From assembly GCA_001683735.1 (NCBI GenBank), contig LUGG01000002.1, positions 3,499,621-3,563,620 of the forward strand: a DNA stretch of 64,000 bases. The letters are read 5' to 3'. A program made the position numbers and the translations under genes. Within the stretch, counting starts at the first letter, position 1, and the number at the start of each line of letters is the position of its first letter. Source of the stretch: Grifola frondosa (taxonomy: Eukaryota; Basidiomycota; Agaricomycetes; Polyporales; Grifolaceae). Shown in pieces: positions 1-63,149 of the stretch. The notes beneath the pieces are model-generated. The model was not told the origin of the DNA. It did not search any database and saw only the letters and a list, made by a program, of their open reading frames with translations.

Positions 1-110
1 AGCCCGGCCCGGTATTCTCAATTTCTCCGTATTATCAGCCCGGCCGGCATTCTGTAACCACAGTCCGGCCGAGTTTCTGAGCACATGTCTTGCGGCCAAT
101 GAATTGTGCC
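1..110. repeat. Left terminal subrepeats of element A (partial)
   Basis: Units CAGCCCGGCCGG or CAGTCCGGCCGA lie at about 1-10, 36-47 and 61-72, spaced 25-35 bp. The same unit type and order occur at 30895-30998 and, inverted, at 16559-16650. The outermost part of the terminus is outside the window. Confidence 0.6.
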
Positions 111-960
111 GTCGGTGAACATCAAATGCGGGAATCACACCCACGTATACCTACCGGCATAGTAAAGCAAATAAAAAGGTTATTGTTGTCCAGTGACCAG
201 ATGAAACGGCAATTCCAATAGGTGCGGCATTTCAGCTCCAAATGCCGCCCCGGTATTATCTCTCGGTATCACATCTGTAATTCATACCACGTCTGGTAAC
301 GGCATTTCCAATCTGGGCTTTTCACATTTCCACACAAACTGCCATCGCAAATACCATTATCGGCCTGAATGTCACAGATAAACATGACATCTATTGAAGA
401 CTACTATTACATAATCAGTAAACAGGGGCATTTCTTGACTATCTCTGCGCGTTGAGTTAACCGCTTGGTGTCCGCATCCAATGCACCGTACGGTACCGAT
501 GCCAAGATATTGCGGTGTTCTATCGGTTGGGCATATGAAACAACAAACAACAATGTTTAGTTTATGCCATCAGCAGTGTATGTGAATGTTTGATAAGAGA
601 AGCACACCTGTTCATGATTATATTATGAGCATAGCAATTGACGATTTCGATAACGGCATTGTGAATGCGGCCTTTGAGATTTGACGTGACCGGTATAATT
701 ACCGGAGCAAATAACATTGCCGGTTGGAACATCCCTGAGGTAAACATCAAATGTATTGAACTATTACCGAAGCGGTAAACGTGAGCTGTCCGACTTTTTG
801 TCCTTAACCGCTCGGTATCGATATTCAATGAACCGTACGGTATGTATGCCATTATGTTGTGGTGTTCAATCGGTCATTTGAGGATTCCAAAATGAAACAA
901 CAAACAATATCCATTGATACAACTGCAGCGTGATACATCGGTAATCGTACACCCGCAAAA
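111..960. repeat. Non-coding left subterminal region with internal direct repeat
   Basis: No convincing gene. A block of about 100 bp at 458-560 recurs, diverged, at 804-905, about 345 bp downstream; both copies contain AACCGCT, ACCGTACGGTA and ATGAAACAACAAACAA. The whole stretch is dense in TRCCG/CGGYA pentamers, for example CGGTACCGATGCC near 490. Confidence 0.5.
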
Positions 961-981
961 TCCTACATCCCTCAACTACCT

Positions 982-1829
982 TCAATGAGGGCCACGATTG
1001 CCGGTCGGTGACGATCCCGCCTCACTGCCGGGATGCTCGACCAATTTGCGCATGAACGCCGTGGGTGTGGAGGGGAGTGCTGCGGAGGGGGGGTCGAAGA
1101 AAAGGGCGGATGAACCACCAGAGTGATTGCCGACGGCACTCGGTGTGGTCGGCTGCACGGCACGCGGTGTGCCAGGTGCCATGTTGGCGATCAGGCTGGA
1201 GGACGGCCCCGGCGTGCCGCTTCGTGATGTCGTAGAATGGCCTTCTTCCTCAAGTTCTCCGACTGGGGAGGACCTGCCCGGCGAGCCGGGTGGAGTGCGG
1301 GCCCAGGGCGAGGGGTGAACGGCCTTTGCGCGGCGCGGATGCCGGGGAGGGAGTGGACAGGGAATGTGAAGACGTCCGCTACGTCCGGTGAAGTCTGCAA
1401 ATCAATGTTCAAATGGATTTACCGCCGGTAAACGACGACTCACCTGCATGACCCGCGTGAATGCGACCGCGGTCACAAAAGCAATGTATGTGTCGAACGG
1501 CGCGGTAAGGTGCGGCGAATCTGCCCATCCCGGTAATGGAGGCGGCGACCTCACGCATTGCCGAGGAGCGCTTGAGCATGTCAACCGCGGTGTTCATCAC
1601 GTCAGACTCCATCTTATTGGCCTTGAGCTGCTCTTCGGCAGTCGGCAGGTCTAGAAACCACTCGGCATATGGACCGTGCCTAGAAAAACCATTAGGAACA
1701 TATTGCCGACGGTACACACTCACGGCATATGCAGGAGGGGCCGCATGCGAAGTGCGCCAGCGCGGCAAAAATGTGAGCGTTGACGTGAAAATCGCGGGGG
1801 TCACAGTTGAAGTGGGTGGGAGATTCCAT
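982..1829 (-). pseudogene. Cassette gene W, copy A (uncharacterised, frame disturbed)
   Basis: I recognise no known family. The central segment, about 1690-1480, reads EWFLDLPTAEEQLKANKMES followed by DMLKRSSAMREVAASITGMG. It aligns with copy B (43.7-43.9 kb: DDLSTDVYSVLRTSTEMEEV) and with copy C at 38.8-39.0 kb. The homologous continuation ADSPHLTAPFDTYIAFVTAV sits in a different frame, so one small indel lies near 1520. The C-terminal part (1182-982) is Ser/Pro-rich and low in complexity, as in the other copies. The start at 1829 is chosen because a short N-terminal exon of similar size opens copy B. It is the leftmost gene in both A and B, next to the transposase and on the same strand. 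Confidence 0.5.
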
Positions 1830-1885
1830 GGTAAAGATGCTGGTTGGATCGATCTGGTGTCAGGTCTATTTAACTGAAGCGACAT

Positions 1886-2437
1886 AATATTTGGGAGGCA
1901 TTTTCAAACTGTATAGAATTCTAAGATGAAGAGGTCTCCAGGGTCCGTGTGACCAGGTACAATGGGGCAGATTTGAATAGATGAATGCTAATCTGCAGAT
2001 AATCATATCGGTAATGATACTGGACAATATATCCCTGCCACGTGGTCAGATTTACTGAGATCATACAGGATTGTAAAAATAGTATCTAAGCGGATTATCG
2101 CAACAGGGACGATGGTGCGATATATTAGGTTCATAATGTGTCACACAAGCTTTACCGGCATGCCCGAGAACTGTCAGCAGAACCAGAAGAAGTCACCGAC
2201 AGAATATACCGTGAACTAAAGAACCATGTCATTGAATATACCGCACATGTGCGGGACCATCCAGATTACCGAGGACCGTGTGGTTTCCTGGTCATGAGTT
2301 GTTATCTGTCTGATATTTGAGAAGACCTCCTCACTTCTCTTCTAAGAAGACAAGAAATTGCAAATTATGGAAGCATCCCGAAGCTGTCAAGTGCCGTTCA
2401 GTCCATCAACTACACATGATCCTTGACTATTTATATA
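1886..2437. other. Intergenic stretch between W and KDZ in element A
   Basis: A 60-codon plus-strand frame at 2138-2320 has no recognisable homologue in the matching interval of element B (44.1-44.7 kb), which holds an unrelated 114-codon frame. I regard both as chance frames. No repeat or RNA gene was recognised. Confidence 0.3.
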
Positions 2438-5400
2438 CTACCAGATAGAATCCCCATAAGAAACCCACGAGGCATTGAGATCACCGAAGGTTGCCGCTGC
2501 GGTATCTGCAAACGATTTCCACATTCCTGCTTGTTTTGCCGCATAACACCGATGACCGGCATTCAAAGCTTTACCGGCCCTGGTTTTCCATATCTCTTGA
2601 TATCGTCGGAAATATCGGATGGTCCAATCCATTTCACACCTCACAATAACAAGCTCCTCCCTCCACCGATCGGCACGTGCTTTCGCTCGAAGCCAGTTGA
2701 CGCGGTGAACTGTTTATCGTTAAAAACAATACTGACAAATGCCTGATCACTCACATTCCCTCATCCATGCAACACCGTTGCTATCGCCGGCCAAGTCGAG
2801 TGTCCAGAACCACGGCAATGGTTTATTCCTCAAGCCCCGGGTGTGTGCCTCAACGAGTGCCGTACCGACTTTCAAATCCTCCGGTGACAATACTTTGTAC
2901 CGCGAGAGAATGAGTTGCCGAGCGTCGTGCCGCTCGGCATTCGGTATATCGGGATCAGAAGGATATAATGATAGAAGGGACCGGCGGGCATGGTGATATA
3001 TACGGGATTGCACGGTGACCTCATTTTGAACGATGTGAACCTCATCGAATGACCGAAGTTTTGTCCGCTGACTTGTTGCTTCACGTACACGTGTCCTAAA
3101 CAAGAATGATTTATATCCCAGCGATAATCGAATCCTGTGAAGGGCATCGTTCATTTGACCCTTTCGAAGTTCGGTTTCATGATCGGCAACATGTTCCAGA
3201 TGAAGTCGCCGAGAGGTATTCCACCCGATCATCGATGGCATATGTAACAGCTGTTTCTCCGGCGGCACATCGTCGCGGAGTTCGACCACTTCATCGATCC
3301 CGGTATTGGTACCGTCTTGAATATCGTACCATCCGGCATTCGTGTCCAATATTACCGAATCATCCCCGATATCAGATTCAGATTCACCGTCGGTGGCGTC
3401 CGGTGAACTGACCATGTGCACTGCGGCACGTCTCTGGAAATTATCGATGCGGGTCTGAAGTCTTTGCCGGCGATCCAGGATTTGTAATTTCTCAGCAGCC
3501 GTCGGATTTCTACCCATATGCCGGATCTCCGCCGCTAGCAATAACCTATGGCAAATCAGATGGAAATCATATATTACCGAACGGCAACTTACTGGCTCTC
3601 TTGAATCCGTATGCCGGAGGAAAGCCAAGCCACAGTTCCACGAGGAAGACCTTTCATCTCCTCAGTCTTTGCAAGTTCAAGCTGAATTTCACTTCGCGTC
3701 GTGCTGAGGAAATGTGAATGTATTGCAGTGGCGTTTCAGGTGATGACTGACCTTCTCGCTTCTTGACTTCAAAAATGTCCATGACTTCAACATCGCGATG
3801 CCGTTCGGTCATCGCCCGGTGATACTGTGCAGTCCACTCGGTCACATCATCGGCATCGGCATTTTCGAGGCAGCGTCGAAACTCTCTCGGTGAAGCTTTT
3901 CTCCGGTGACAGCCTTTCGGTATTTCCGAACTAGTGTCGGTACTGATAGATTTTTGAGTGGTGTATGTGGAAAATATTAGGAGTGAAATTGCTTACTCAT
4001 CCTAGTAAGCTTCTTCCAGTTGGAGTCATTCATGTGGTCATCTATTACTTCTTTCCTGTGTGCCGTGGACATTCCGCGAGTACTACCGGAAATGTGATTT
4101 AGCGGAGCCCACAAGGTTTCGATAATTTCACCGTCGATTTGCCCGGCACCTTCGATAAAATTCGGCGAATATCTGGCAAAGCATTGGTCTTGATGTCCGT
4201 GCACATGGAAAAGGCCGATGCCTTGGAGAATCGTAAGACCGAGCGGCATTGTGAGGTATGGGTTCCCGGCGAATCGCTCCCTCATCCGTTTGCCATATTG
4301 ACACATGATGTCATACAACAGTAATAACAGGGTTATACCGCAAAGTGTTGCCAGAGCACCGTTAAAGACGTAGTCCATGTTTTTTTGCCTGTATCCCGTG
4401 AATATCCTGCGGTGTTGACAGGTACCGAGAACACTCACCGTTCACCCTTTTGAAAGTCGACGACAGAATGCGGAACAAAACAACCATGCCGGGCACAGGC
4501 GGCCGCTCCAATACCGGTGGCCTCAAGATTGTGCCGGTTTGCATTAGCTTGATTCACCGCAGCATGATCGTTACATGTTGACCGCTAATGACCGAAGATG
4601 CAATTACCGGGTGCTCATAAGAATGCCGAAGATAACTGACCTCTCTGGATTCCTTTGCGACTTTCAAATGGTTTTTGTAGTCCCGGTCCTGACCATGAAT
4701 CCTTCACCATCCCGCAATTTCACATCATCGTCCGGATTCCTCATTTTCATGTGCTCTGCGGTGAAGTTCCCATCCATGACAAAACTCCGGGTATATTTCC
4801 ATCTGTGGTTGTTAGAATTACCACCAGCGATGCAATCTTATAGAACACACACCGGTCAGTTTCATCAGTTTCCCAGTCCCTCGGTAGATTTACCCCCGGT
4901 TGGGGGCATGCGGCACAGAAAAGACCATGACTGCCTGGTCCTTTCACACTCTCTGACTCATGGGCTTCCCCCTCCATTTGGCATTTTTCAGCTCTCTCCA
5001 TTGTCGGCTCACCCTTAACAGCTCACGATACCGATCCTTTGCGGGGAATAAATACATTGCCTTCCGGTATATCATATAACTCACCGGAACAGCGTGAGGA
5101 AATGCCGGTGATGTCACCCGGCGAAGCTTGTTATAGTAATTCAATGCCGCGGTCTTGCATTCCTTGTTTTCCAGAAGAAAATCGTCCAGAACCCGGAACG
5201 TGAATGCCGTGCGGGGATATTTGGCACTGGCCGGATATAATCCGAGATCGAGTAATTGGATGTCTGGCTGCACGGCATTTGGACAACCGCACCAGTGTGC
5301 CTCAAGGTGGTGGATGCCGTTGATATCCACTACAACCAAAGTCCGGGTGGTTGGGTTGACCGTCGCATAATATTCGGCATTGTGTCCATGCTGTCTTCAC

Positions 5401-6041
5401 CTTCCCCGGCATCTGAATCTGATTCACCGTCAACGGTACTCTCACTCGGGCAAGCTAAGCCACCGTGACCGAGGTACAGCTCCACCCCGGTAGACCGAAG
5501 TGAGCCAGGCCGAAAGTATTCGCCGGTCCAAGATTCCACACGGTGAAATGGTAGTCCAGAATGTTTTACCCTCGTGCAATCCAGACATGTGACCGGAAAT
5601 CCAAGGCATTCAAGACATCTCCATGTACCCTCCCTCACTTTGCATCCGGCACATTGAAGTCCACCTTCGGGATGCTCCAAGTCGACGATGCGGTGCAAGA
5701 ATTCGGCCTTTCGTGGTAGCCATTCCCGCATGAAGTCATTTTGGCTCTACAATCCTCCGGTAATTACTCATATCATTTACCGAAGCTTTTCTCACGGCAC
5801 TCACTTTTGTCTTTCGTCCCTTTTTCCCGCAGGCTGCATCGAGGTTATCGTTGATATCCCAATATTCTTCACGTTCTTCAGGTACTTGTTCACTATTACC
5901 GCGGTCTCGTACCGGTGCGGCCGTCACCGGGCTTTCTGTGTGGTTTACCTTGATCCGTTTGCCGGAGATGTCAGATTCACCGTGTCGTATACCGCTCTTT
6001 GATATCACATTCCGCCGGGGAATTATGTTTTTTTTTGACAT
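2438..6041 (-). CDS. KDZ transposase with CxC cysteine clusters, copy A (one frameshift)
   Basis: Predicted DDE/RNase H-fold transposase that would cut and join the element's DNA. Start MSKKNIIPRRNVISKSGIRH at 6041 matches copy B. In order: a Cys-rich block near 5660-5560 (CAGC, CLEC, CLDC); CAACPQPGVNLP near 4900; MDGNF, the likely first catalytic Asp, near 4775; a CNDHAAVNQAN/ATGIGA/CARHGCF/VVDFQKGE block at 4590-4440; YDIMCQYGKRMRERF, likely second Asp, near 4300; HVHGHQDQCFARYSPNFIEG then GEIIETLW with the likely catalytic Glu at 4210-4090; and a helical C-terminal region (ELRKGQMNDALHRIRLSLGY near 3150) ending at 2438. Relative to copy B one A is missing near 4692, in the codons before DRDYKNHLK, which breaks the frame. 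Either the gene is dead or the base is an assembly error. The family call is secure; full exon borders were not mapped. Confidence 0.85.
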
Positions 6042-6121
6042 GGTGCGGCTGGTTGGTAGGGGTAATTCAGTGTGGGGATCAGATTTATATACCAATAGAC
6101 ACGTGTTGAATGAATATGTAA

Positions 6122-7400
6122 CTACTCCGTACAATGTATGTAATATTCCATGCTCATCCAATGAGGATACTGGACTCCGGCACGACCAAGGACATCAACA
6201 GACATGAAGCATGCATAACATAACCTTTCTCCATCCACTGCCTTGACCCCATGACGAACGACCTTACCGCACAATCCCACCACCGATCCGGGATTATACG
6301 TTGCCGAAACTCCCATCGTCGGCAATTCCAATACCGCATGTTCGTACCGCCCCAAGGTTACGAGAAGGTCCATCCACGGTGCTCTGCCAGATGTATCGCG
6401 GTGAAGCGGTGTTTCCCGGTTAGAGATGACCTGAATTGCGGTAAATGTTGATGCCCATAGGTCAATCGCCGGCTTTAGACTCGGATCACCGGACATATGC
6501 CGCAGGGATCGAATGCCTGCATTGTACAAATCTGGTTGCATAACCCGCAATATGCCGCTGAGAACGGCGTCAGATTCTCCAGACAACTCCAACCAACGCA
6601 TGCATTCAGGGTGTTTTTGCAAGGAAGCCGAGGTTTCCGGCATGTATGGTGGGGTCTTAATTTCATAAGTTCCATATATCTTTTACAATCTTATCAAACT
6701 CACCTTATGTCCCATTTGAAACCAGGCTGCGGACATCGTAATAATTCCCGGAGGGAACCAGTGACAATTCTCGGGTTTCCTATATAAATCCCGGTTCTCT
6801 CGCCATGACGTTGCCTTCCCGCCCGGTATCTTTATGACATCTTTCATTTGCCCGATCGAGTTTTCCATGGCTTTCTGTGATGTTAGGTGAGATCCCAGTA
6901 ATTAATACCGAAAGTCGTCAATGATACACGCACCTGTCGAATGCCGGATAGAATGCCGGGGAGTATCCAGCACAATATCCGCAGGTGCTTGTCGACTATC
7001 ACCGCCGGGCTGCTAACATGAGATGACGGAATGCCGGGAGGAAACCTGGTATTCATTTTGTTCTCCAACTTTTCGCTTCGGCCCGTCGGTTTTGTCCCGA
7101 TTCCATCGGCATATTGATCTGCGTCCCATTCTACCGAGACTTCCCGTAGATTTGTGAGTGCCGTATAGAATTGCCGCAGGATTACCGAGACTTACTAGGG
7201 TTTTTGTAGGCTTGTACCAGACCATGTGCCAAACCCATGCACTCATATACCATGTCCACACTCAGCATGATATTTGGAAGGGGCCTGGACATGGTAATGG
7301 GTTTTGTTGGGCTCCTAGTATTCACATGCAATGTATATTTGAACAGCTCTAGAAGATACAGAGACAATGCCTCTGTATATTCCAGATTGTATGCTTGCAA
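6122..7400 (-). CDS. TET/JBP-family 2-oxoglutarate/Fe(II) dioxygenase, copy A (intact)
   Basis: TET/JBP enzymes oxidise 5-methylcytosine or thymine in DNA; a Coprinopsis homologue is known to oxidise 5mC. Four exons fit: 7400-7196, 7139-6934, 6874-6704 and 6655-6122. They total 1116 nt, a complete 371-aa protein with phases that join cleanly. The catalytic core is in the last exon: HRDTSGRAPWMDLLV supplies the Fe-binding His and Asp, VVRHG the distal His, and ERLCYACFM the likely 2OG-binding Arg. The N-terminal exon (NLEYTEALSLYLLELFKY) is strongly conserved in copy B although it matches nothing I recognise. The protein lacks any CXXC domain. It lies directly upstream of and co-oriented with the transposase, and diverges from the HMG-box gene across a 590-bp gap. 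Confidence 0.88.
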
Positions 7401-7988
7401 ATACTAAACCAAACAGAGGGTTTGGTTGCTGAACTGTTTATTGTAAAACCTGCTTACCTTTCTATTGGAATCCATATTGTCAGAATTGATGAGGGAATCA
7501 AGTGAAGCAATTTGAATGCAAGAAGTGACTAAAGCAGGAAGATGAACATGCATGATTGATGTTGTGATGTAGTTAAAAAAACACTGCATGGACAAACATA
7601 GATATACTGCTGTACACGAAACTGTGGCTGAATGTAATACCGAAAATGGAGCAACATGGTGGTCATATTGGTACACTGATGAGTGATGTTTCCCCAGTGT
7701 AAATTAACTGTGACATTTTAAAAGTGTTATCAAATTACAGGTTACCTATGTACTACATCACGGCAAGGTGAATGAATAATGTAGAATATGACAGAGGGAG
7801 AAGAATGCTGCAGAAAAGGTGATTCAGAGACATGTGTTGAATGACCTTGATCAAACTTCAAAAGATCTCGTTGCCATTGGTGGAGATTCGATCAAGGTCG
7901 GAATTTAAATTTCACATTCAAATCTCGTATCATGAGTAAGCCAGCAATCCAAACAAAGAATCAACTTTCCCTCCTTCATCCTTCTACA
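7401..7988. promoter_or_regulatory. Divergent TET/HMG intergenic region with a conserved non-coding block
   Basis: TET(-) and HMG(+) start on either side, so this likely holds both promoters. A block of about 37 bp at 7586-7622 (ACAAACAT..ATATACTGC.GTACACGA) recurs at about 49738-49776 upstream of the TET gene of element B, although the surrounding DNA has diverged. No TATA box is called with confidence. Confidence 0.4.
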
Positions 7989-10749
7989 ATGCCCTCCAAC
8001 ATGGTGTTTACTGAGGCTGAGCTTCTGAAGCTGCAAAATGCTGCTGAGGAGCATTTGACAGGATTGAAATCTGACAGAAGGACACTTAGGAAAAGACTGG
8101 CAGCTGAATTCTGTCAATCTCGGGGTGAAAGTGACAAAGGTTTCGAACAAAAAATATTGCAGGTGTGTATTGTTCGATTGCTTCGGTAATAGGGTCTCAC
8201 ACCGACATAGGAAATCTGGACATGGTATTCGAAACGGGAGAAAACCCGCCGTCATAAAAAACCGAAACCTGTGGACGGGCATTACCTGCTCAGAAAGTGG
8301 ACGGCATATAGAGTGTGGCGAGCGGAACATGCCCGGGAGATTATCGAGAGAGCAAAAGAAATTAGCGGCGCGGAACCAGGAGCCGATCGCCGATTCATCC
8401 AGGCATATCAACCGGCAGCAAGTGAACTTTGGAACAAAATCGGCAAGAAGGAACAAAAGGAATACGAACGAACCGCAGATAAGTGGAATGCCACCGGACC
8501 GCCGACGACCGTCCAGCAAATGTAAGTGACCGAATATCAGCATTACCGAGGATACTAATGCCGAACAGTATCGCCGACGAACAACTTACCGAGATGTGCG
8601 CTAAGTTTGCCCGCATGGTAAAACTGCAAACAAATGCCAACTTTTTATCTTAACGGGACATCAAGATTCCGGCGGCGATATGGTGGTAATCAGGTATGGT
8701 ATTTGTTCCTAAATGTCATGACATTAGCTTCATCCCAGCATAGACATGACTTTCAACGACCGATACAGTCAGCTACATCAAAAATTTACCACCGCCTGTC
8801 CGAAATGGGCCACTGAGACATATGCCTCCTGGGTAAAATTTACCAGGAAGTGCTTCAGTGAGCAATTAGTTCCTACGGTTAAAATGGTATTTACCACGGT
8901 GAACATAGATACCGACGGTGATAACGAAAGTTCCGACGATGAGGAATACCTGGCCATTAACGGTGAAGCCGAAGCTTTTACCGTATCCTTTCAAACGGGA
9001 TCATAGCGGCATTCCTGTCATTCCCGCTTCGGTAGAACTGAATCTGCTTGCACTACAAAATTTCATCCGGACATTCCTCACGATGCATTGGAGTGTGTTC
9101 AAATTTCTGTCTTCAATAAGAGGTGCTGACACGTGGCGGTATTTCAGATCTTGCAGCGCAATATGACCGGCCGATTACCTTGGGATCGCCTGAATAAGGA
9201 AGGATTCCACCGATATATTGTGCCTGGATCGGTACCGGAAGGAATGGTGTTCTGTGACCCTTCCAAAATCAAGAAGGAACAAGCCGAACAACTGTTACGA
9301 TACTGGCAAGACCGACAGAAGAATCCTGATCAAGAGGTTTTCAGGTTCAGTCACGGTATTGTGAATGCCGAGCGGTGTGCAGCGATATATGCCGTTGGGA
9401 AGACAGCGATGCCGATGCGGATGATGAGCATTCCCCTAGATATGCCGAGGTATCGAAGAAGTCGAAGTCGAGGAAGGCAAGAAAGAAAGGTAAAGGAAAA
9501 GCCAGGGCAGTTACCGGGACTGACGGTGAGGACGATGGACCGATGGACAATAATTTGGACCGATATGAAGACCGCGGGAATAGGGATCCAAACAACCCCG
9601 CGATTCCTGACTGGGACTTGAGAGCGGCAAAAGACCAGCCACCGTCTTGGGCCGGTGATGTGTATCGGAAACGTCGGATATTCCTTGCATCTTTGTCACA
9701 GGAGGCATTTTACCAGACCTTGATCAAGGTCATCCTGGAAAGACCGGTATGTCATATGTACCGCATATATGTACCGTAGCTAATGCCACCCAGGGAATGT
9801 TGAACTTGAAACTGCGGGATGCCCCTGGCAATTTCTGGGCCAACTGGAAATATGACCAGTCATGGCTTCCTGAGGATTTTCATCGGCATTCGAACCGACT
9901 GACGCGGTCATCGAGTTTTGGAAAGAGGAGATTGTCGACTACAGGAGCGGCACAAAGACCGTCGATGTGGATGAAATCGTTCAAGCGGCATTGGTGTTCG
10001 GTCTCATACTACGGGACCTGCACCGCGCACAATTCTCGTTCAGTGATCCCGAAGATGCAGTTGCCGCACCCATCCCGACATACATCTCCACCTCGCCGCA
10101 TTCATTCGAGCAGATTACCGAAATCTCAACTCTTTGCGGTGATCTTGTCAGGATTTATGTGGAACGTCAAGACCTTGATGAGGCATCGCTCATGCTCCCA
10201 ATCACAGCCCGGCATGAATCATTACAGATTCCAGCTTCACCCATCCAATCCACATCAAAAAATCAATTGATATCCTATGTACATATCCCGGTGTATGTTC
10301 CGTCGATATCGACAGGACCTCGGCAAACGAACGGTACCACACCGGTGGCCACGACGAATGCCATTGATAACATTGACGATGTACCGCCGGTGATTGGATG
10401 GGATGCTGAATTATCACCGCAAGTCACCGCACGTCGAATTACCTCCAATGAGATTACCTTGAAGGCTCAGGAGATATCGAAGGTGAAAGAGAGGTATCCA
10501 GCTTCACAGGGTGCGGAAGACCAGAATACATCTGGAACTCGCAAGCGGAAGAAATCGTCGGAGCTGGTCACTCCGGCAAAGAGGTCGCGGCGTAGTGAAC
10601 CCACTGGTGCAGCACCGCGGATAACCCGCAGTGTTGCCCGGCAGAGTCAACCGATGACACGTAGTATGGCGGCAAAGAGGAATGCCGCGGTGACATCCCT
10701 CAAGGCAATGTACACATGCCGAACAAGCGGAGATAAAGGGCTGCGGTGA
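7989..10749 (+). CDS. HMG-box DNA-binding protein, copy A (multi-exon, frame broken once)
   Basis: Exon 1 (7989-8162) gives MVFTEAELLKLQNAAEEHLT, matched by copy B. Exon 2 starts at 8211 (EIWTWYSKREKTRRHKKPKP) and contains an HMG-box-like region, YRVWRAEHAREIIERAKEIS to SELWNKIGKKEQKEYERTAD-KWN, about 75 aa. Later parts include FNDRYSQLHQKFTTACPKWA (8746 on), LPWDRLNKEGFHRYIVPGS (9175 on), a Lys/Arg-rich stretch (9450-9500), ALVFGLILRDLHRAQFSFSD (9990 on) and a basic C-terminus with repeated TRS motifs (10612-10680) that looks like a nuclear localisation or DNA-contact tail. In the exon near 8600-8690 one T is missing relative to copy B, moving MVVIR out of frame. The likely role is DNA binding within the cassette. 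Confidence 0.72.
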
Positions 10750-10855
10750 CTGGTATTTGTAAACACCGCAGGTTCTTATATAAATGGTGAATGCATATTT
10801 GGTATATACAACTTTGAAACGTTTTTGAAAGTACACGAGGTAAAGGTAAAGATAT

Positions 10856-12345
10856 TTACGATGACGATGACCGAGCGGCATCTGTTCCCGGCGACGGATA
10901 TCTCGGCGGCTGCACCTCCCATTCCTTCAGAGCCTTTTCGTACCTGTGCCGCCTGCGGACTATCTTTGGCCAGGAAATGAGCTGAGTTTCCAGCTCAGGC
11001 TTTGCCGCGAGTAAACCTTGAACGCTGTCCATGCAAAGGCCCGCGGCTCTCGTGTGAACCATTTCCCGCAGGTCACTCAACTCCTGCCGCCAACTATTTA
11101 CCCTCAGCGTCTCCTCCCTCATCCACTGCAACATCTCCGCCCGGTATTGAAGAAGGTCGCCGCCTGCGACATTTGCGTCCTTCACCTCCGAGTGGATGCA
11201 CCACATCGGCAATGTCTCCGGCATCCATCCCTCCACAGCCTCAGGCATGTCACCGCGAAAATGCGCTAACATTGCACCGCCGGTGCGGCTCGAGGAACCG
11301 CGGTTGTGGACGTACCAGCGGTAAATGTCGAGCGGGTCCGTATCTGCATCGGAGAGGGTGCTCGGCTCATTGTAGGCGTTTCGATTGCCCAAGTCATCGG
11401 ACGTTGCACAGTCGGCACGGTGCTTGACTGTTGCGGCATATCCTGCATGAGAGGTTGCAGGAGAGCCGTGGCTCCATGACCGGTGCGCTCTGTGTTTACC
11501 AATGATGGCAGATGGGAGAGACTGGGACAGATGGTGGGAAGACTGCTTGCGGCAGTGGGAGCTGCCCCCATTGCAGCGGCGGCAATGCGTTGCCTGCAGT
11601 ATCGCCGGTGGCCAGCGGTACCGTGGACGGTGCACGGGATTGAGTGCGAGGGACTTCAACATTGGCTTCAGGAGGCTGGCTCATGGGAGTTCCCCATTGG
11701 TGGGGAGAGGTGGTGCGCCAATCTGGTCAAATCTCCTGCAGGTGCAGGAGAGTTGAATTGCACAGGGGAATCGGGACGAATGTCGGGCGATTCGATAAGC
11801 CATGTGTTTTGTTTGCCGACTGGGGAGTGTGCCGGTGTGTTACCGGGTGACGGTGTCTCGAGATTGAATGACCGAACAGGTGCCGTGGTGTGGATCGTTG
11901 CCGGGGTATTACCGCGGGATGGAGTTTCAAGGGCAAAGGTCAGGACTGGTTGAAGACCGTGAATAGGTTCCGGGGTGTTGCCGCGTGACTGGTGTCTCCA
12001 GATTGAATGACCGAATGCCTTGCATTGGGTCGATGTTTGCCGGAGTGTTGCTGCGCGATGGTGTCTCGATGGCAAAGGACATGAGTGGTCGAGGGGCATG
12101 CATCACGGGCGGGGTGTTGCCGCGAGATGGTGTTTCCAGATTGAACGACCGAGGTGCATCGACGGTATTCTCGTTTGCCGGACTGTTACCGGGGACGGCG
12201 TTTCGAGTTGGAAGGACCTGGTGACGTGGGCCGGGTTCTGTATTGCCATTGCGTTCAGGCGGGACGGTACAGAATGACTATCTACGGTGATCTCGCTAGG
12301 CTGTGCCGGAGTCCACTCCATGGCGTCCGACTGGTCTACGTCCAT
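10856..12345 (-). CDS. Cassette gene U, copy A: SP/TP-repeat protein with helical C-terminus
   Basis: Unrecognised family. The start MDVDQSDAMEW at 12345 matches MEVDAWKTDSPP in copy B. The N-terminal half is made of about six units of roughly 23 aa with the core FxLETPSxGNTPA, rich in Ser-Pro/Thr-Pro. The C-terminal 100 aa (11150-10880) read RVNSWRQELSDLREMVHTRA, then KPELETQLISWPKIV and RYEKALKEWE. These align with copy B (RTRSWDRELRRIAKMIHDRG, HPDLVDDLISWSEIG, KYEEWMESR). The conserved skeleton is SW..EL..L..M-H-R..G...D.V ... P.L...LISW..I. At least one frame shift separates the repeat units, so the exon structure is uncertain. Confidence 0.6.
11838..12205 (-). repeat. Tandem coding repeat of about 69 bp inside gene U
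   Basis: On the plus strand the unit reads roughly TTGCCGGGGTGTTACCGCG, then GGTGTCTCGAGATTGAATGA, and recurs five to six times with substitutions and a few indels. On the minus strand it encodes the FxLETPSxGNTP unit. Each unit contains several TRCCG/CGGYA or CCGGGG motifs. Confidence 0.6.
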
Positions 12346-12802
12346 TGGGAGATCTGTAAACAAATGGTCAGTATACCCATGAGATACCGCAAACGTTTGC
12401 CGATGTAATACCATTCGATAAAGCTGCGATACAACAAATAACATAATTGAGGAATTATCGAAAGCGGCATTTATGAAGAGAATATTTACCGGACATTTTG
12501 CGACGGGTTTCTGCGGCTATTGGAACGTAAATACCTCAGTTGCGATTTTACAGAGAAGAGACGACTTGCCTGATGGGTGAGAGGAGGGGGCAAAATTTGA
12601 ACTTGTTCGGTGGGAGTTTTATGTACCTTCCGACGGAATTTTACGTCAACATGTGATCTAGATTGATGGGCTAGGGCAAAGAAGTGATCACGTGATCGCT
12701 AACCGGCAGTCCTCAAATACCTCTCTCTCAGGCTCTCAGGCCAGTCTGCTTCCTCATTCCCCCAAGTCCCTCACCTCACTATACCGTTAATCAACTCCCC
12801 GC
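12346..12802. promoter_or_regulatory. Divergent U/X intergenic region, element A
   Basis: U(-) and X(+) diverge here, as in element B (58127-58587). Both intervals end in a pyrimidine-rich leader (CTCTCTCTCAGG-type, then TCACCTCAC) just before the X start codon. Nothing else was recognised. Confidence 0.35.
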
Positions 12803-15293: not shown

Positions 15294-15628
15294 TTCTCCA
15301 GCTAGTCACACGTGTCGCGGTTTTTGTCTTTGTACGATAGTCGATGTTCGGTATATTCGTTTGTCTTGGCTTATGCAATTTGCTTCGGTTATTGGTACCG
15401 TCGGTCATACTGCTATGGTAATCATGGTACCGCTGGCCATACTGCTACGGTAATCATGTGTGCTTGGTAACTATGTTCTTTTGTAAATGACTTATTGTTT
15501 TCCTGACTATTGTTTATCGGAGTTTCAACCTTATTAACCGCAGCTTTTTAAGTCCAGGTTTTTATCACTACAAAATAGATCATTTTCTTCATTGAAGTAT
15601 TCCTAATTACCTATCATCCTCTTACACA

Positions 15629-16342: not shown

Positions 16343-16558
16343 TTAAACATGAATTGATTGTCTGCGTGGTACATGTATGGTAGTTCCGATACATATTCTC
16401 TGGTGAACCGTGGCACGCGATATATTTAAACAATCTGCGCCGGTAAAAAGCGATGCCGTGCGCGGTAAATAGGCCGATGACCAAGGCATTTTTCCCCTTC
16501 GGTAAAGGATTTAAATGGTACATTCGCGGCAAACATGGGTCAAAATACTGCCGTATAT

Positions 16559-24134: not shown

Positions 24135-24200
24135 AGATTGAGAATAATTGATATCAAATGTAAGATTAATATCATAATCATCTTCAAAGTCATCGCATCC

Positions 24201-39925: not shown

Positions 39926-39964
39926 AGTTGTCATTTATTATTTGCTCCAATTGCTCGGTCCCAG

Positions 39965-42067: not shown

Positions 42068-42164
42068 CTCGGCTCCATCGATAGAATTCGGTCTTCGATG
42101 CCCCGGTTGTACTGAGATAATGCCGGATATGTAATGACCGGACTGACGGGATCGGGACGGAGCA

Positions 42165-48345: not shown

Positions 48346-49636
48346 TCACACCGTACAATCTACGTAATGCCTCATGGTCATCCAATGTGGAAACTGCACT
48401 CCTGCATGGCCCAATACGTCAGCGGACATGAACCCGGCATAGCATATCCTCTCCCCATTCGATGTATTTGCTCCATGTCGGACCACCTTTCCGCAAATAC
48501 CAACGACCGTTCCGGGGATGTATTTTACCGATAGCCCAAATGTGGATAATTCCAGCCTCGCGTCTTCATATGGGCCAATCGAGGCAAGCAGGTCCATCCA
48601 CTGGGACCTTCCTGATGTATCTCGATGTAACGGAGTGTCCCGGTTCGAGATTATCTGGATGGCTGTGAATATAGAGGCCCACATTCCAACACATGGATGC
48701 AGCACATTCGGCTTCTGCATCAAGCGTCGGAGAGACTCCACCCCGGCAGTATATAGGTCGGGCTGCATGACCCGGAATATTGCGCTGAGAAGCGCGTCTG
48801 ATTCTCCCATGCACCGCAATGACTCCCGACATTCCGGACGTTTTTGCAGTACGGCTGAGGTCTGCGGATGATACGACGATGTCTACTCCGGTTAGTATTC
48901 AAAGCTCGTCCCGAGAACCGATACGACCGACCTTGTGTCCCATCTGGAACCAACCCGCAGAAAGAGTAATAATCCCCGGGGAAAACCAGGAGCACTGCTC
49001 CGATGGCTTGAACAACTCTTTGGTCTCCCGCCAAATTTTAGTTTTCCCCTTTGGAATCTGAAATAGGTTCTCCATGTTACGGAGCGCATTTTCCATGAAG
49101 AGCTACAATAATTCAGGATGAAGCTGGTTTATATTTCTGCAAATTCACTCACCTGTCGGCGTTCTGATAGAACTCCGGGAAGTATCCAGCATAATATCCT
49201 GTCATGTTTGTCCGTGATGATGCTCGGAGTGTCGATCATAGTGAAGTGGTTCAATGGTGGAAACCGGAGGCACATGTTGTCCTCCCATTGGCTGTTTCGC
49301 CCGGTCGGCTTAGCTCCCAACCTATCTGCATATCTATCTGCATCCCAGTCGGTCTGGACTGTGACATCTCTAGAGATCGACGACCGGACTTCGACTCCGA
49401 GATATATATTCACACTTACTTTGATGTGTGTAGGCTTGCACCAGGACTTCTGTCACAGCCATACATTCACAAACCATGTCCAGGCTCAATATGATATCTG
49501 GAAGTGGCTTGAGCATGGTGGGTGGCTGTGTGGGTGTTCTAGTCTTTAGGTGTAATTTGTACTTGAAGAGATCAAGAAGGTACAGAGATAAGGTCTCTGT
49601 ATATTCCAGGTTGAATGTTTCATGTAATGAGGACAT
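48346..49636 (-). CDS. TET/JBP-family 2-oxoglutarate/Fe(II) dioxygenase, copy B (intact)
   Basis: Four exons (49636-49420, 49367-49153, 49102-48932, 48882-48346) sum to 1140 nt and join in frame to 379 aa, with intron positions equivalent to copy A. Core motifs: HRDTSGRSQWMDLLA (Fe-binding His and Asp), VVRHG (distal His) and ERICYAGFM (Arg for 2-oxoglutarate). The conserved N-terminal exon (NLEYTETLSLYLLDLFKYKL) and FFSPGIITLSAGWFQMGHKV-like exon 3 are shared with copy A. The likely reaction is oxidation of 5-methylcytosine in nuclear DNA, inferred from family. It lies next to the transposase, same strand; the upstream neighbours here are two Z genes rather than HMG. Confidence 0.88.
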
Positions 49637-53327: not shown

Positions 53328-56271
53328 ATGTCCGCAAAAATTGTTTTCTCCCAGACAGAGCTCGCAGAGTTAAATAGTGCCGCAGAAGAGCACTCTATCG
53401 GTTTGAAATCTGAACGGAACGTCCTCCGGAAAAATCTAGCTGTTAAATTCTGTACTGCTCGGGACGAAAGCGATGAGGAATTCAAACACAAAATTTTACA
53501 GGTTCTATTCCTATTTTCTCTCACATCTCACCTTTGACCTATCCATGTTGTAGGAGATAAGGAGATGGTTTTCGAAAAGAACGAGGAAACCATCGTCGTA
53601 AGGGAAAGTCGATGGATCCAAGTTATCTTCTCCGAAAGTGGACGCCATACAGAGTTTGGCGAGCAGAGCATTCTCGTGAGATCATCGAAAGAGCAAAGGA
53701 AATCAGCGGCGCTCAGCCCGGAGCGGATCGACGGTTCATCGAAGCGTATCAACCGGCGGCAAGTGAGCTTTGGAAGAAAGTTAGCAACGAAGAGCAAAAG
53801 GAATATAAGAGGACCGCGGAGAAATGGAACACGAAGGGACCTCCGGTAGCTATCCGACAAAGGTAAGTATTCAGTGTTCGGAGACATCTGTCATCATTTC
53901 ACTGACCAGAAAATAGTGTTGCAGATGAGCAATTGGGGACATGTGTGCGAAATTTGCCCGGACCGTCAAAATGCAGACCGGTGCCAATATTTTTATGTTG
54001 ACCGGTCATGAAGATGCCACTGGAGATATGGTGGTCATCCGGTAAGCTACAGTGAATTGCTGAGAATGGCGGTGTTGACTTTTGTCCCGTGGACTAGCCA
54101 TGATTTCAATGACAAGTACAGTCAGTTAGGGCAGAAGTTCATCAACACGTTCCCGAAATGGGCAACAAACACGTATGCTTGTTGGGTAAAGTTCACCCGG
54201 AAGTGCTTCAGTACGTGATATCAACCGAGAAAGTAACCGTTCTGACCATCGGCTTCAGATCCGGAACGAGATCAAGATGAGAGCTCTGAGGATGACGAAG
54301 ACCTCCGGCCTAAAACTGTGAAACCAAAACTCGCTCCGTATGCATTCAAACGAAATTCAAATGGAATCCCCATCATTCCGGACACCTTGGAGCTCAATCT
54401 GCTTGGGCTGCAGAATTTCATTCGAACCTTGTTTACCATTCATTGGAGTAAGTCTCAAGTGATCATATGGGTTCTCCGCCGATGATTACCTGTTCATAGA
54501 TCTAGCTTGCGGAACTCTGTCAGGACGTGTGCCTTGGGACAGACTGAACAAAGACGGATTTCACCTGTATATTGAGTCCGGCTCACTCCCAGATGGGATG
54601 GTCATCTCGGACCCATCGAAGATCAAGAAGGATGATGCGGAGAACCTTCTCCGATATTGGCAGGAACGTCAGCAAAACTCAGACTTGGAATTTGTATTCC
54701 GGTTCAACCATGGAATTGTCAACTCCACACGTCGACCGGCACTGTATGAGGTACTAGGGAACAGCGATGACGATGCAGATGATGAGATGCGTGGCAAAAT
54801 GATACCACCCGAGAAGAATGCACCGTCATCTAGGCGAAGAAAAGGCAAAGGGAAGGCGCGAGCCATAATTCTGTCAGAAAGTGATCCGGACGTTGCAGGT
54901 CCTATCCCCCATGTCGATCCGGAGTCTCACACCGGAAATCGACAGGACTCTCCTGGATCTGTGATAGAGCCATTGAAGATTCCGGAGAAAGAGGTCCGGA
55001 TTGCAACAAACCAGCCTCCGTCATGGGCTGGGGAGGCGATAGGAAAACGCCGCATTTTCTTAAACTCACTCTCCGAGGAAGGTCTGTATCAAACATTAGT
55101 AAGAGTCATCTTGCAGGCCAAGGTAAGCTAGTTGTGTGTGTCAATGATGGTATCCTTGAGCTTTCATTCAGGGATCACTGGACGTTAACCGGAACGAGGC
55201 GCCGGGGAGCTCATGGGCAAACTGGAAATACAAGCATCAGTGGCTCCCGGAGGAGTTTCATCGAAACTCAGATCACCTCATGGACATCACCAAGTTTTGG
55301 ACGTTCGAAATCGAGGCTTACAGAAGTCAGACGAAGCGTATTCACGTGGAAGATGTCGTCCGAGGGGCGCTGACTTTTGGACTTGTGCTCCGGGACCTCC
55401 ATCGTTCGCAATTCTGCATTGCAGACCCAGATGAAGACATCCCCACCAAATTCCCTGCATACATATCTAGCACGGTCCATGCATTCCACAGTATCACGAT
55501 TATCACTGATTTATGTGGGAAATTGGTCCGGGCATGGTGGAACGTGATGACATGGAGGCGGTCCCTCATCAACATGGAAAACCACTTCAGAGCTCTTCAC
55601 AAGCAGTCATTCAATCCACGAGATATCGTGTGGAGTCTCCACCGATACCTGGTCCATCCGGGATACAGCAGGAGGACTCTCCGAAGATCAATGGTGCATC
55701 TGGAAGAGACTGCTTGGAGTGGTCTCCGATACCCAGTCTGTCCCAAATACAGCAGCGTGGCCCTTCACAGACCAATGGCGTACCCGGAAGACGTATCCCA
55801 GAATCGCATACCGCCGACATGTTTGGCCCGTTGATGGCTGACTTTGCTATCGCCATCGAGTCCATCTCATCAGCACGCAACAACACGGCCAATCGAAATG
55901 TATTTGATGACGATGGAGGATTGGGTACGCCCACAAGTCGAGTCGTGCACATGCCAGCCATCCAGGAGATGTCAGGCTCCTCCGCTCCGCCGGAAGCTTT
56001 AGATGCCGCTGTGATACAAAACACACCGGAGAAATATGGTCTGAAAACTAGGAAAAGAAAAATCGTTCCGGTCGTCGAGATCTCACCCTTAAAACGCCGT
56101 AAAGTGAAGGCGGAACCTAGAATAGGTGGCATCATTACTCGGAGCAAAGCTAGGGACCAAAAGAGGGTGACTCGGAGTGTTGCAGCAGCGACTGGTGTGA
56201 GAATCCTTGCCCCGATGGACGTTGGTGCTCGGAAACATAATTTGAAAGGGAGAAAAGCGGGGAGAAAGTAG
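53328..56271 (+). CDS. HMG-box DNA-binding protein, copy B (frame broken twice)
   Basis: Exon 1 (from 53328) gives MSAKIVFSQTELAELNSAAE then HSIGLKSERNVLRKNLAVKF. The second exon holds the HMG-box-like domain (YRVWRAEHSREIIERAKEIS to SELWKKVSNEEQKEYKRTAE-KWN, 53630-53850). Later exons: MVVIR; DKYSQLGQKF..KWATNTYACWVKFTRKCF; LELNLLGLQNFIRTLFTIHW; VPWDRLNKDGFHLYIESGSL; a basic RRRKGKGKARA stretch; NQPPSWAGEAIGKRRIFLNS; ALTFGLVLRDLHRSQFCIAD; and a C-terminus with PLKRRKVKAEPR and repeated TRS motifs. One base is out of step near 53595 (RTRKP versus HRRKGKS) and another near 55536 (LVRA/MVERDD). Neither breakpoint coincides with those of copy A, which lets the two copies correct each other. Confidence 0.72.
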
Positions 56272-58587: not shown

Positions 58588-61382
58588 ATGTCTGAAACCG
58601 TCCTCCCTATCGAGGTATCTGAACAATTCAAAGCCTTCGAGGCTATCACCGTGCGTCTCTGCGATGAGTTCGACCACCGTCCCGCTCCGGACGCTGCCGA
58701 CTATAAAGATCGTGAATCTGCATGGTGGGTCGAAATGGTATATTTCTACCTTTTTTTGTTTATGAAATTGCCCTCACTCACATTCTAACAGACTAAGCTA
58801 TACAACCAGGCAGACTCCGTTCGCCTTCGCACCGGCTTTTTCTACTCCTTCCCAGAGATTCTGGTCAGCGCCCTTGTCGAAGGACTCACCGCCTTTCAAG
58901 CCCAGAGCGCCAAAATGGGCCAATGTACGATACAACGACCGTCGGGCCACGCTCAACAAGTGGCGCAAGAATTGGCGTCCTGGACCGCTGGTCAGATCCA
59001 CCGCTGACGGAGGCGACTCCGTGGCAGCCGAAGTGAACACTGCACCGAACGATGTTGTCATGGCGGACCCATTGGTCGTGGCACCCCCATGGATGTCCCA
59101 AGGAGGTGACTGTGACGGCCAGTTCCACGACCCCGGGCAAGGTCCCCCGGTGAGCAGTCCCTTGGAGACCGTCCCGAGTGTGGTGGACAGTGCCGGTATG
59201 TTCCCATAAATTTCTCATGCGTCTCCCCCTCACACTGCCATGACGTCCCTCAACACCAGATATAGTGATGGCGGACCCACCAGTCAAAGCGTCCCCGGTG
59301 GACATGGCTGTTAAACGTACGCCGAATACGTCCCGTCCAGCCAACCCGCAAATTCTTCATCCCGTGCAGGCCGACGCGGGGATGGATGAAGATGCTCGTA
59401 AGTTTACATAAATCATGCATTCACCGTTGCTGATATTCATGTAAAGGTGTCCCCATTACTGACACTGCGGCATTGCCGATATCGCCTCTTGTGGCATCTG
59501 ACGAGCCCATCGGCGCTGAGACAAGTCCGGGAGTAAGCGCGCCCGGGATGAGTCCACCCCGCCACCTAGCAAATCGAAGAAGGCCCGCAAGAACCGTAAG
59601 AAAAGCCGGACTCTGACATCGAGATCGTTGAGGCACCGAGTGGCAAAGGCAAGGAACGTGCAATCGATGTCGACGTGGAGGCGATCATCGTCGATGCCGA
59701 TCTGGGTCGTAGTTCGTCTGAACCGGAGATGGTGGAAGACGTGATTGAGGAGGTTCAGAAGCAAGGTATGTGCCAAGTGCCCTTACATCGTGCATGTCTG
59801 ACCATGATGTTTAGAGAAGCGAAAGGGCAAGAAGAAGAAGACGCCAAAGTCCCCGGAGGTTGTCTCTCCTCCGGAGACGAGAAAGAAGACAAGAAGGCCG
59901 ATGCCATCGTGTATCCTCCGGACAAGGAGCTCCGCGTGTCGTTCCCGCTCCGCATGTCGGTAAGTCTTGTATGCCTATGTATTATCGATTCTTCTTGGCT
60001 AATAATTCTTACAGGAAATTACCTGCAATCAGTGCAAGAACGCCAAGAGGGTGTGCTACTTGGTTCAATCTGGTGGATCGCTTGCATGCGCGAACTGCCG
60101 CATCGCCAAGTCATCGTGCAGCCTGACGCCGAAGGGTTTCCGCGGGTCGCAAGCCCAAGGCCTCCAACACCAGGCACAGATGGAGGCGCAGGCAGCCGCG
60201 AGTCTAAGGGGCAGAAGCTCCCCCATCCTGACCCGAATTCGGAGGCAAGGCTCCGGAGGGGGCTCTACACTCTGTGGATGAAGACGGACATCAGCAAGGG
60301 TCAGCGCAGCGGAGAACCTGGCCAAGCGTCAAGCGTCAGGGCGGAGTCCATGGGAGCGACTGCGGGGCGAGAGTCTAGGGAGCCATCGGTTGCGGCGGAG
60401 GTACAGATGCCATCCCCGATCCTTCATGTCAAGACGCCACCTGGAGTAGGAGAGATGACGACGAACAACCCTCGTCCGAAGCCGAGGAAGGTCCCACCTC
60501 CCGGTGAGTAGCGTTTTTGCTTTCATGTGCCAAGCTGACCTTGTTTTGTTTTCAGCACAACACGGTGCAGAGCAGGCCACGTCAGCTGCCCCGGGACCCT
60601 CCATCAAACTCAACCTCTTAAAGGTTCCACCGAGGACTCTCAGAGTGACCCGGAGCGGCAGGATGACGAGCGACGATAACGTCGTCAAGTTCACGGCACT
60701 GGACAAGGAAGCAGATGAAAGCCAGGCGACGGATTCGGAGTCGGAGGTGGATCAGTTGAAGACTCCGGAGGAGAGCGAGAAGGAAGACCACGCTGAGCAA
60801 GCTTCGAAGCCGGCTCACCCGGATCCACCTCTCCAAATCACGCTCTCTCAGGCAGCCAGGGAGAGGCATCAAAGCCGGGTGTTGCGAAAGGCCCTCCGCC
60901 AGGTCACGCGGAAAGCAGATGCCAAGGGCGAGGTCGATGAGCTCGCGAAGAAATTCTACTCATTGTTCGCGATCCCGGCGGAACTGGGATCAGTCAACGC
61001 GAAGATCCCAGACATGCAGGATCTTCCAGCACAGGTCGCCGCGCTGAGCCAGTCGCAAGCAGTCACGAACGACTTTTTGAAGACGCTGATGGACCGTGAC
61101 AAGGAGTGGTACGGGGCGTACCGCAAGGATTACGAGTACCTCCTCAATCAAAACGCTGGGATGGCCAGCGTGGTGGAGACCATTCGGCGCCATGTTCTTG
61201 CCCAGAAAGAAGGCGCCCTGCACAGAGATGTCGGATCGCAGGCTGGGGGAAGTGTGAGCAGTCCCGGTGCGGGGCCGTCCGAGGAACGAGTTGACCTCGG
61301 AGCGGCAATAATCGATAGCGAGACGAAGTCTGGTGCTCCGGAGAAGGGTGACTCGATGGACTCCAGTGCCGGAGCGGCTTAA
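58588..61382 (+). CDS. Cassette gene X, copy B: Zn2Cys6 cluster and coiled-coil protein
   Basis: Exons: 58588-58737 (FKAFEAITVRLCDEFDHRPA); from 58792 (LYNQADSVRLRTGFFYSFPE); 59260-59397; 59447-59765; 59815-59959; from 60015 the zinc exon; and about 60556-61382. The zinc exon encodes CNQCKNAKRVCYLVQSGGSL then ACANCRIAKSSCSLTPKGF, CX2CX6CX10CX2CX6C, a canonical Zn2Cys6 pattern expected to read CGG triplets. The last exon is an open frame with an acidic part (DKEADESQATDSESEVDQLK) and a helical part (ARERHQSRVLRKALRQVTRK to SVVETIRRHVLAQ), likely a dimerising coiled coil. Frame changes near 58870, 59610 and after the zinc exon lack clear introns. Known Zn2Cys6 proteins are nuclear transcription factors; a role in the element's own expression is inferred. 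Confidence 0.68.
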
Positions 61383-61847
61383 TCGGATTGGTATCGTTCT
61401 AGCCATGTACCAGTAGTTCATGCCCAAAATGGGAAGTCTTCACTATGCAGGGAATGATCCTACCACAGGGCAGGTCGCATGATACCGGAGTGAGAAGAAA
61501 ATGAAGGCGGAGCGGCGTAAGTCCCTTGTGATGATTCCTCATGCAGCTCATCTCACACACGCATCGATGCCTGACGTGTGGCGAGCATGGAGTCAGGCCG
61601 ATGGGTGGATTTCGCCTATCATGGCTGGCCGACAAACATAAATTTGAATCCAAGCATACTGTTACATGCATAGCCTAGTTGTCAATGACGGATTAGAAGG
61701 GAGAAATAGGTGAGACGATCGGAAGAAGTAAATTTCAGGAGATTGGCGTTGTGGTTGGATGGTGGGCTGTGCAAATCGCACAGCACGAATCCGTTGGAAA
61801 TGCATGAGCCATACGGTTGGAGTATGAGTGAGGCAGCAGGGGGATCC

Positions 61848-63149
61848 AAGAGGTCGCTCACCTGGGGGACCCGAGAGCTGACGGTTGCGAGAGAGGCTGC
61901 AACGCCCATCTCGACCCTCACTATGGCCAGGTGAGGGGCTCCTGCCTGAACATCCTTGTCGGAGCCAGAATGACGGGATGCGACGGAGTGTGAGGGTCCC
62001 ACAGCACACGGTGGAGTGGAAAAATGAGCCGGATGACAGCGGACGGAGCGTTGCCACTGCACTCGAGGGACAAGTGAGTAGAGTGGGTGCGAGCGTGAAA
62101 ACATGCTTTCGCTCGATTGGGTTTTCGAAACCAAGCCTGCCAGGCTCAATTTATTGTATTCCCAAAATGGGAAGGTTTTCAGCCAAGTTTATATTGTACC
62201 GGAGTGAGACAACAATAAAAGAAGTCGAATGTCGTCTTGAGTTTGTTGTTTTCTATCCGGAGGAGCACTTGTTCTCCTGATATAGCGGCTGTTATTTGTC
62301 GGAGTTAGAACCGGCTTTGCTGGACCATTTAATCTGCCATTATTCTTGCATTTCATCGTTCTTTCGTCCACCTCATCCGGTACCATACTCGCTAGTCATC
62401 ATGTCATCTCAATCTGAAGAGCAAAAATCCAAAGATATCTACTTCCGGATCGCAGCGACTGATATGCAGCTCCGTGCATGGAGGATCTGGCAGGCTATGC
62501 AAGCTTACCCCGACTCTGCGGATGAGATCACAGAGCTCCGGTGGGCTCGAGGATTGGAGAATGAGATGGTATGTGTTCGATTGTACTGATGATCGTTACT
62601 GACGTCTTTCAGTATCATGTGAAGGATTTGATCGGCAAGATGTACCTCACCGAGTTCAAACCGTACATCCCCGAGATGGTGTACTGCTTGATTCACGGAG
62701 CGCTCCTTTGGCGTGGAAACGCATATGTCGTCGACATGAAAAAGATGGTGTACCGAACAGGGAATCCTCCAGACCTTCCGAAATCATTTGCGCATATTGC
62801 GGAGAGACATGCCTGGTGGACTTGGCTCGAGCATCCCAATCCCAATCCACCGGCATGGTGGAAGGATCCGCTTATAGATTATGTAAGTGAAGCTTGCTCC
62901 GGGGGTTCTTTGACTGACATTCTACAAGCGGGATCCCACTCGAGTTTCGCGCGGCGATTGGCAGGGGCTCAGTGAGACGATTTTGGATGTGGATTCCGAG
63001 ATTCGGGACTTCATCAGGAAGCAGGAGGCAAGGATTGATGAGCTGGAAGTATTGGTCCGGAAAATGGAGGAGGTCGGTACTGCTATCGGGGATGGAAATT
63101 GAGCTGCACGCCGAAGATCTGTATTACTACTGCCTTGCACATCAATGTT
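61848..63149 (+). repeat. 1.3-kb duplicated segment containing gene Y, copy 2
   Basis: Partner of 40767-42067, nearly identical through the Y stop codon and then rapidly diverging after GAAGATCTGTAT. Here Y stands in its expected place after gene X. Confidence 0.9.
62401..63102 (+). CDS. Cassette gene Y, copy B2 (intact, 203 aa)
   Basis: Exons 62401-62568, 62613-62882 and 62929-63102, 612 nt in total, with clean GT-AG borders. Blocks: KDIYFRIAATDMQLRAWRIW, GKMYLTEFKPYIPEMVYCLI, YRTGNPPDLPKSFAHIAERH, WTWLEHPNPNPPAWWKDP and a C-terminal charged helix. No known family recognised. The start MSSQSEEQKSKD is chosen over an upstream in-frame Met at 62296 because it matches copy A (MSTTEDQSQKSKE). 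Last gene of the cassette, about 1 kb after X and co-oriented. Confidence 0.8.

Follow-up and report, generated by a model that had tools for sequence, protein, structure and literature searches.

Why should related transposons in a single fungal genome each be saturated with a short DNA word of its own? The question was raised by a 64,000-nucleotide stretch of the Grifola frondosa genome (C2:3499621-3563620, hereafter the window), for which an earlier note had described two elements, A and B, that favor different CGG-containing pentamers, TRCCG/CGGYA in A and TCCGG/CCGGA in B. We located the edges of A and B by word density and repeats alone, and the features to which we refer below are as follows (coordinates within the window).

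1 to 16700, no strand: element A, assigned as a TET-carrying KDZ transposon and saturated with CGGYRW; 265 TRCCG/CGGYA, falling to zero density in the bin after 16.75 kb
3980 to 5746, minus strand: KDZ transposase segments and cysteine-cluster region of A (PF18758, E 3.5e-31; homology with B)
6128 to 6655, minus strand: TET/JBP dioxygenase segment of A (PF12851, E 1.3e-21)
14214 to 14345, plus strand: six-cysteine cluster of protein X in A (pattern search and alignment)
16701 to 30800, no strand: unrelated spacer almost free of either word (11 A-type and 5 B-type)
30801 to 63150, no strand: element B, including a composite left arm; its word is CCGGAG/TCCGGA; 241 TCCGG/CCGGA
31670 to 42433, plus strand: dispersed word-rich repeats in the left arm of B (R1; a 107-nt unit present five times, 61 to 78% alike; repeat families D1 and D6)
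46193 to 47977, minus strand: KDZ transposase and CxC2 cluster of B (PF18758, E 5.6e-32; PF18803, E 3.4e-25)
48352 to 48882, minus strand: TET/JBP dioxygenase segment of B (PF12851, E 3.4e-18; CcTet in PDB, E 3.9e-22)
60015 to 60146, plus strand: six-cysteine cluster of protein X in B (pattern search; Zn_clus E 0.034, below threshold)

In both elements the KDZ transposase and the TET/JBP dioxygenase lie on the minus strand and score above the curated cut-off, and the plus-strand genes include protein X. On the strength of both domains, we assign A and B to two families of large DNA transposons of the KDZ (Kyakuja-like) type that carry TET/JBP. The TET segment of B matches the Coprinopsis enzyme CcTet; a TET query of a protein database returned two matches, one of them named Lentinus brumalis, and relatives were not found in viral contigs scanned with the KDZ and TET proteins. 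The label HMG, which the earlier note had given to one region common to A and B, proved weak, with a match at E 0.1 in B and none in A.

The left end of A lies beyond the start of the window, and B, judged by word density, has a sharp left edge at ∼30.8 kb and a less sharp right one. The spacer between them is mostly CpG-poor; at 20990-26295 a PIF1-like helicase segment (E 3.1e-23) is accompanied by an RNase H/zf-RVT segment below cut-off, and from their sequence both are assigned to other CpG-poor mobile elements. The left arm of B (30801-42600) has a composite appearance, with a second, partial TET at 33573-33827 (minus strand, E 0.00097, below cut-off), an inverted KDZ-element segment at 36255-37148, and 300-nt blocks at 40762-41553 that are 99 to 100% identical to the right end of B at 61843-62635. 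B may thus be two elements with one dialect. Related sequence rich in CCGGCCGG was also seen at the right edge of A (16617-16697) and the left edge of B (30806-30990), and these stretches are perhaps terminal transposase sites.

We recounted the words over the whole window, and the local counts of the earlier note were correct to within one or two sites. A-type and B-type words numbered 14 and 1 at 2401-3000 and 6 and 2 at 8271-8880 in A, and 3 and 4 at 53601-54200 in B, where 2 and 5 had been noted; R1 at 42301-42540 held no A-type word, five CCGGA and two TCCGG. Over their full lengths, A (16.7 kb) contained 265 TRCCG/CGGYA and 46 TCCGG/CCGGA, B (32.35 kb) contained 108 and 241, respectively, and the spacer (14.1 kb) 11 and 5. 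When all 5- and 6-mers were ranked against a Markov background, the check that the earlier note had proposed, each element's own word came out on top. Against an order-1 model, the leading 5-mers of A were CGGTA (56, expected 11.6) and CGGCA (76, expected 19.4); those of B were CCGGA (122, expected 40.8) followed by CGGAG, and its leading 6-mer was TCCGGA (55, expected 12.3). The pentamers are cores of longer motifs, CGG-Y-R-W in A and CCGGAG(C) together with the palindromic TCCGGA in B. The words run the whole length of both elements, exons included, rather than clustering near the ends, and the A word is about as dense in conserved coding segments (15.5 per kb) as in the rest of A (16.2 per kb). 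No strand bias was significant (lowest p 0.06, in B), on which ground we rejected a signal acting at the RNA level, and no fixed spacing between words was found except that of the B palindrome, a pattern to be expected of many single sites on DNA.

We then asked whether codon choice or base composition could produce such a pattern. In 2000 synonymous-codon shuffles over the 6.4 to 6.5 kb in which segments of A and B are homologous (3 of the 26 B segments have in-frame stops and are imperfectly framed), the A word occurred 104 times in A compared to 45.7 ± 5.7 in the shuffles (z = 10.2), and the B word 60 times in B compared to 26.9 ± 5.1 (z = 6.6); in neither case did any of the 2000 shuffles reach the observed count. 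The word of the other family was at expectation in both elements (B word in A, 29 versus 27.1; A word in B, 26 versus 26.2). The remaining DNA agreed under order-2 simulation: the rest of A held 158 A words (77.1 ± 9.4 expected) and only 17 B words (38.7 expected), and the rest of B held 176 B words (116.2 ± 13.0 expected) and 81 A words (105.5 expected), so that the foreign word was below expectation in each. Codon choice and dinucleotide composition were thereby rejected as the cause, and the claim of element-specific dialects in coding and noncoding DNA alike is upheld by this double dissociation. Amplification of internal repeats was likewise rejected as the main cause in A, where 247 of the 265 words lie outside repeats, and in families C and D (described below); it contributes in B, where 148 of the 241 words lie outside repeats and 93 within.

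We further searched the genome (39.06 Mb in 64 contigs) for related elements and obtained at least 94 KDZ matches, at least 31 TET matches and at least 30 matches to each X cluster. Clear words were found in five families, A, B, C, D, and G, the words having been picked on data pooled per family (the pooled C and D sets double-counted 115 and 20 bases, respectively, at locus overlaps). CGGYRW in A reached 3.4 to 4.5 times expectation, CCGGAG in B 4.2 to 6.0 times, CCGGCRA in C 12.7 to 19.3 times, CGGDGCA in D 12.8 to 16.9 times outside a nested retrotransposon, and CGGSWTT in G 7.9 to 11.0 times; further copies of A and B, being 99% alike, are not independent of those in the window. The excess in all five families consists of a CGG core whose immediate 3′ neighbors are specific to the family. 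In D these bases depend on each other, AGCA following CGG 37 times compared to 14.9 if the flank positions were independent. The words overlap to some extent: A segments are also rich in the C and G words, C segments in the A and G words, and B and D segments in each other's. Five host stretches scored for the five words gave none of 25 word-by-segment cells flagged.

The specificity of the CGG flanks was assessed with models trained on the part of each element toward X. All 12 other segments scored best with the model of their own family. In bootstraps, three segments each of A, B, and G did so in at least 499 of 500 replicates and one of D in 437, but the two C segments returned their own family in just 339 and 263 of 500, with A a close second and hardly separated. 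The B model was also the best for L025 (+0.01) and for two of the four host segments, C1 (+0.00) and C7 (+0.08), compared to +0.17 to +0.28 for B itself; with the host scores near zero, B and host differ in this test only by degree. The dialect test also kept families E and F and the loci I, H, J, L057, L051, and L053. E and F showed weak dialects, and the X-like loci I, H, J, and L057 showed none, even though a TET gene is found within 6 kb of I, so the presence of X alone does not predict a dialect. None was found either at the one KDZ locus without a listed X or TET within 100 kb (n = 1). A locus at C2:3325892-3340744 (L052, L065, and L073), where two X-like genes flank a TET gene, showed no dialect and has no KDZ match nearby among the matches listed; it is perhaps another type of transposon.

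An insertion in one D element separates the sequence of the transposon from its chromosomal surroundings. An LTR retrotransposon with gag, integrase, and chromodomain (L074, C8:1394501-1400600) is nested there, and its 7250 bp held 1 D word compared to 76 in 14011 bp of flanking element DNA, with p = 6.4e-13, a value that is optimistic because the borders (C8:1394250-1401500) were set after the word profile had been seen. The 6.1-kb stretch of L074 chosen before the profile was seen likewise held one D word. Since the nested retrotransposon is nearly free of words, a regional effect of the chromosome was rejected, and the dialect belongs to the element's own sequence.

The CpG in every word offers a second view of their history. 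A has a CpG observed/expected ratio of 1.04 and 49.6 CGG/CCG per kb, compared to the ∼31 expected at 50% GC, which indicates that words were gained. In a decayed relative of C that shares 89.5% identity with L011, most CpGs have become TpG or CpA, and those within words were kept no better than others (6 of 33 versus 36 of 128; 19 of 68 versus 23 of 93 with words defined as CGGYR; 22 of 101 versus 20 of 60 with any CGG taken as a word), none of the differences being significant. Living families appear to acquire words and retain them, and in the dead copy the words have worn away. These figures bear on the idea that the CpGs inside words are simply shielded and persist, the rest being lost to methylation and deamination. 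The CpG observed/expected ratios of 0.83 in C, 0.68 in G, and 0.73 in D (counted with its nested retrotransposon), all less than 1, would suit such passive retention, but the undiminished CpG and surplus of CGG/CCG in A and the indifferent loss in the decayed C copy speak against it, and we regard it as very improbable.

If the words are read, protein X is the candidate reader. In all five dialect families the TET and X matches lie on opposite strands, 6.5 to 11.1 kb apart. The earlier note had called X a Zn2Cys6 protein, and the pattern part of this assignment stood: the X clusters of A and B have the spacing C-x2-C-x6-C-x9/10-C-x2-C-x6-C, and the six cysteines and one tyrosine are invariant across 12 aligned X loci. 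The profile part did not, as Pfam Zn_clus matched 5 of the 12 loci, every match shown falling below threshold (E 0.0062 at best; 14.7 bits for B compared to a cut-off of 21). A PDB profile search with the 12 clusters gave nothing significant (best XPA, E 0.44, and LEU3, E 1.1), and an AlphaFold model of the cluster, built with two sequences, had a mean pLDDT of 58.1, too low to confirm a binuclear-cluster fold. In 10 of the 12 loci the second half of the cluster has the form C-R-x2-K-x2-C, and it is with this half that the start of the Zn_clus profile aligns in B; the first half is variable. We infer from this pattern that the second half may read the common CGG and that the first half may help to set the flank. 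Near-identical X copies in families A and B (L036/L037 and L041/L043) are out of frame with each other for a few codons, or from there on, right after the zinc cluster, which from the sequence is attributed to an intron or small indels.

The earlier note had also proposed that each element's word may have co-evolved with its X. Similarity of X did not track similarity of words significantly (Mantel r = 0.26; 29 of 120 permutations as high with five families and 801 of 5040 with seven, the other X-like loci being left out), and KDZ distance tracked words about as well as X did (rho 0.37, p 0.10). The assignment of the words to X as candidate reader therefore depends on the CGG core and the co-occurrence of the two.

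Taken together, these data show that each family carries a dense, strand-symmetric, CGG-based word along the whole element, including synonymous positions in exons, and they suggest a model in which its putative reader X would bind the CGG core and the family-specific 3′ bases. Many X-bound sites would then mark the entire element and keep anti-silencing to members of the same family; plausibly, the element's own TET would bring this about by oxidizing 5-methylcytosine. We put the probability of this reading, in which a family's own X binds its word and anti-silencing is thereby restricted to that family, at about 0.48; the data establish the dialects, their family specificity, their independence of codons and dinucleotides, and the genes in common, and X as reader, the recruitment of TET, and an anti-silencing outcome are the parts that we infer. 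Since every word contains a CpG, silenced copies would be expected to lose their words to methylation by the host and deamination, and the single decayed copy tested did so. The strand symmetry, the even density through exons, and the lack of fixed spacing fit a landing pad better than a promoter role. A more specific version, which we offer tentatively, is a distributed address code, in which hundreds of CGG-plus-3′-flank sites per element, rewritten in each family, synonymous codon positions included, would steer a transposon-encoded demethylase to its own family only by way of a transposon-encoded zinc-cluster protein. If true, a selfish element would have evolved TET demethylation that is targeted by sequence.

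Three other explanations of the words have to be weighed. They could be bound, at sites scattered along the element, by a different protein that it encodes, for example the CxC2-bearing KDZ transposase or the HMG-like protein, and so serve recognition or assembly of the element. The transposase is family specific too and its distances follow the words as X does, and A and B have one CCGGCCGG-rich edge each; against this, the words occupy the entire element and its exons rather than the ends, CGG is a classic zinc-cluster target, and no dialect is seen at the single KDZ locus for which neither X nor TET is listed within 100 kb (n = 1). We consider this explanation unlikely. A second possibility keeps X as the protein that binds the words but makes it an activator of the element's own genes with no part in demethylation. 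Zinc-cluster proteins are mostly transcription factors, and the presence of X alongside family-specific CGG words in five families would be expected of an activator as well; the density of words, however, is nearly equal inside and outside the conserved coding segments of A and far above what a few promoters would need, and this role seems to us rather unlikely.

The words could also be a neutral signature, left by a family-specific mutation bias or by an origin of the families in different hosts, with no reader at all. Each family does carry its own word over its whole length, much as a genome signature would be carried. The excess, however, is confined to a single CGG-anchored motif with joint flank dependence, seen in D, instead of a general shift in composition, and the off-family word stays at expectation under synonymous shuffling. 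A neutral origin is in our judgment distinctly improbable, and we continue to favor binding of each word by the family's own X in the service of anti-silencing. If that is true, it would explain how several TET-carrying families, each self-serving, coexist in one fungal genome, and it would mean that, by synonymous changes, kilobases of coding sequence can be made to carry a DNA-binding code. The five word-X pairs in this one genome offer ready material for testing the DNA specificity of zinc clusters and targeted demethylation.

Elements of this kind have known relatives. The original KDZ-TET paper is reportedly that of Iyer et al. 2014. TET-positive Kyakuja (KDZ) transposons of Agaricomycotina are described by Kojima 2025 (PMC12730594), with 7-bp target duplications and 5′-CA..TG termini, and A and B resemble them in combining a KDZ transposase and a TET/JBP dioxygenase within one element. 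That paper speculates that the TETs of Kyakuja are without target specificity (PMC12730594), and the terms Zn2Cys6, zinc cluster, and HMG were absent from it by term search. A literature search, with most subscription papers outside its coverage, found no report of word dialects in TET-carrying KDZ elements and nothing on Kyakuja with HMG and zinc, on transposon-encoded fungal Zn2Cys6 proteins, or on a KDZ transposon with an HMG or C6 finger. Compared to fungal Zn2Cys6 proteins of the GAL4 type, X has a similar six-cysteine spacing and every dialect word contains CGG, but the profile matches of X are below threshold and the words lack a fixed half-site spacing.

A close parallel, to which the earlier note had pointed, is with the VANDAL transposons of Arabidopsis, where related transposons have different motifs that are read by their own VANC proteins (PMC5735166, PMC10398659). 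The parallel does not extend to detail. VANC21 sites are described as lying in noncoding regions, often in tandem repeats (PMC5735166), whereas the words here are as dense in conserved coding DNA as elsewhere (15.5 and 16.2 per kb in A) and lie mostly outside repeats in A (247 of 265), C, and D. VANC has domains of its own, in contrast to the six-cysteine cluster of X, and TET is carried by the elements here. Reading and demethylation are proven for VANC only, X being a candidate reader. The logic is nevertheless alike in the two systems: related transposons within one genome carry different short motifs, each with its own candidate or proven reader, and host methylation is the likely opponent.
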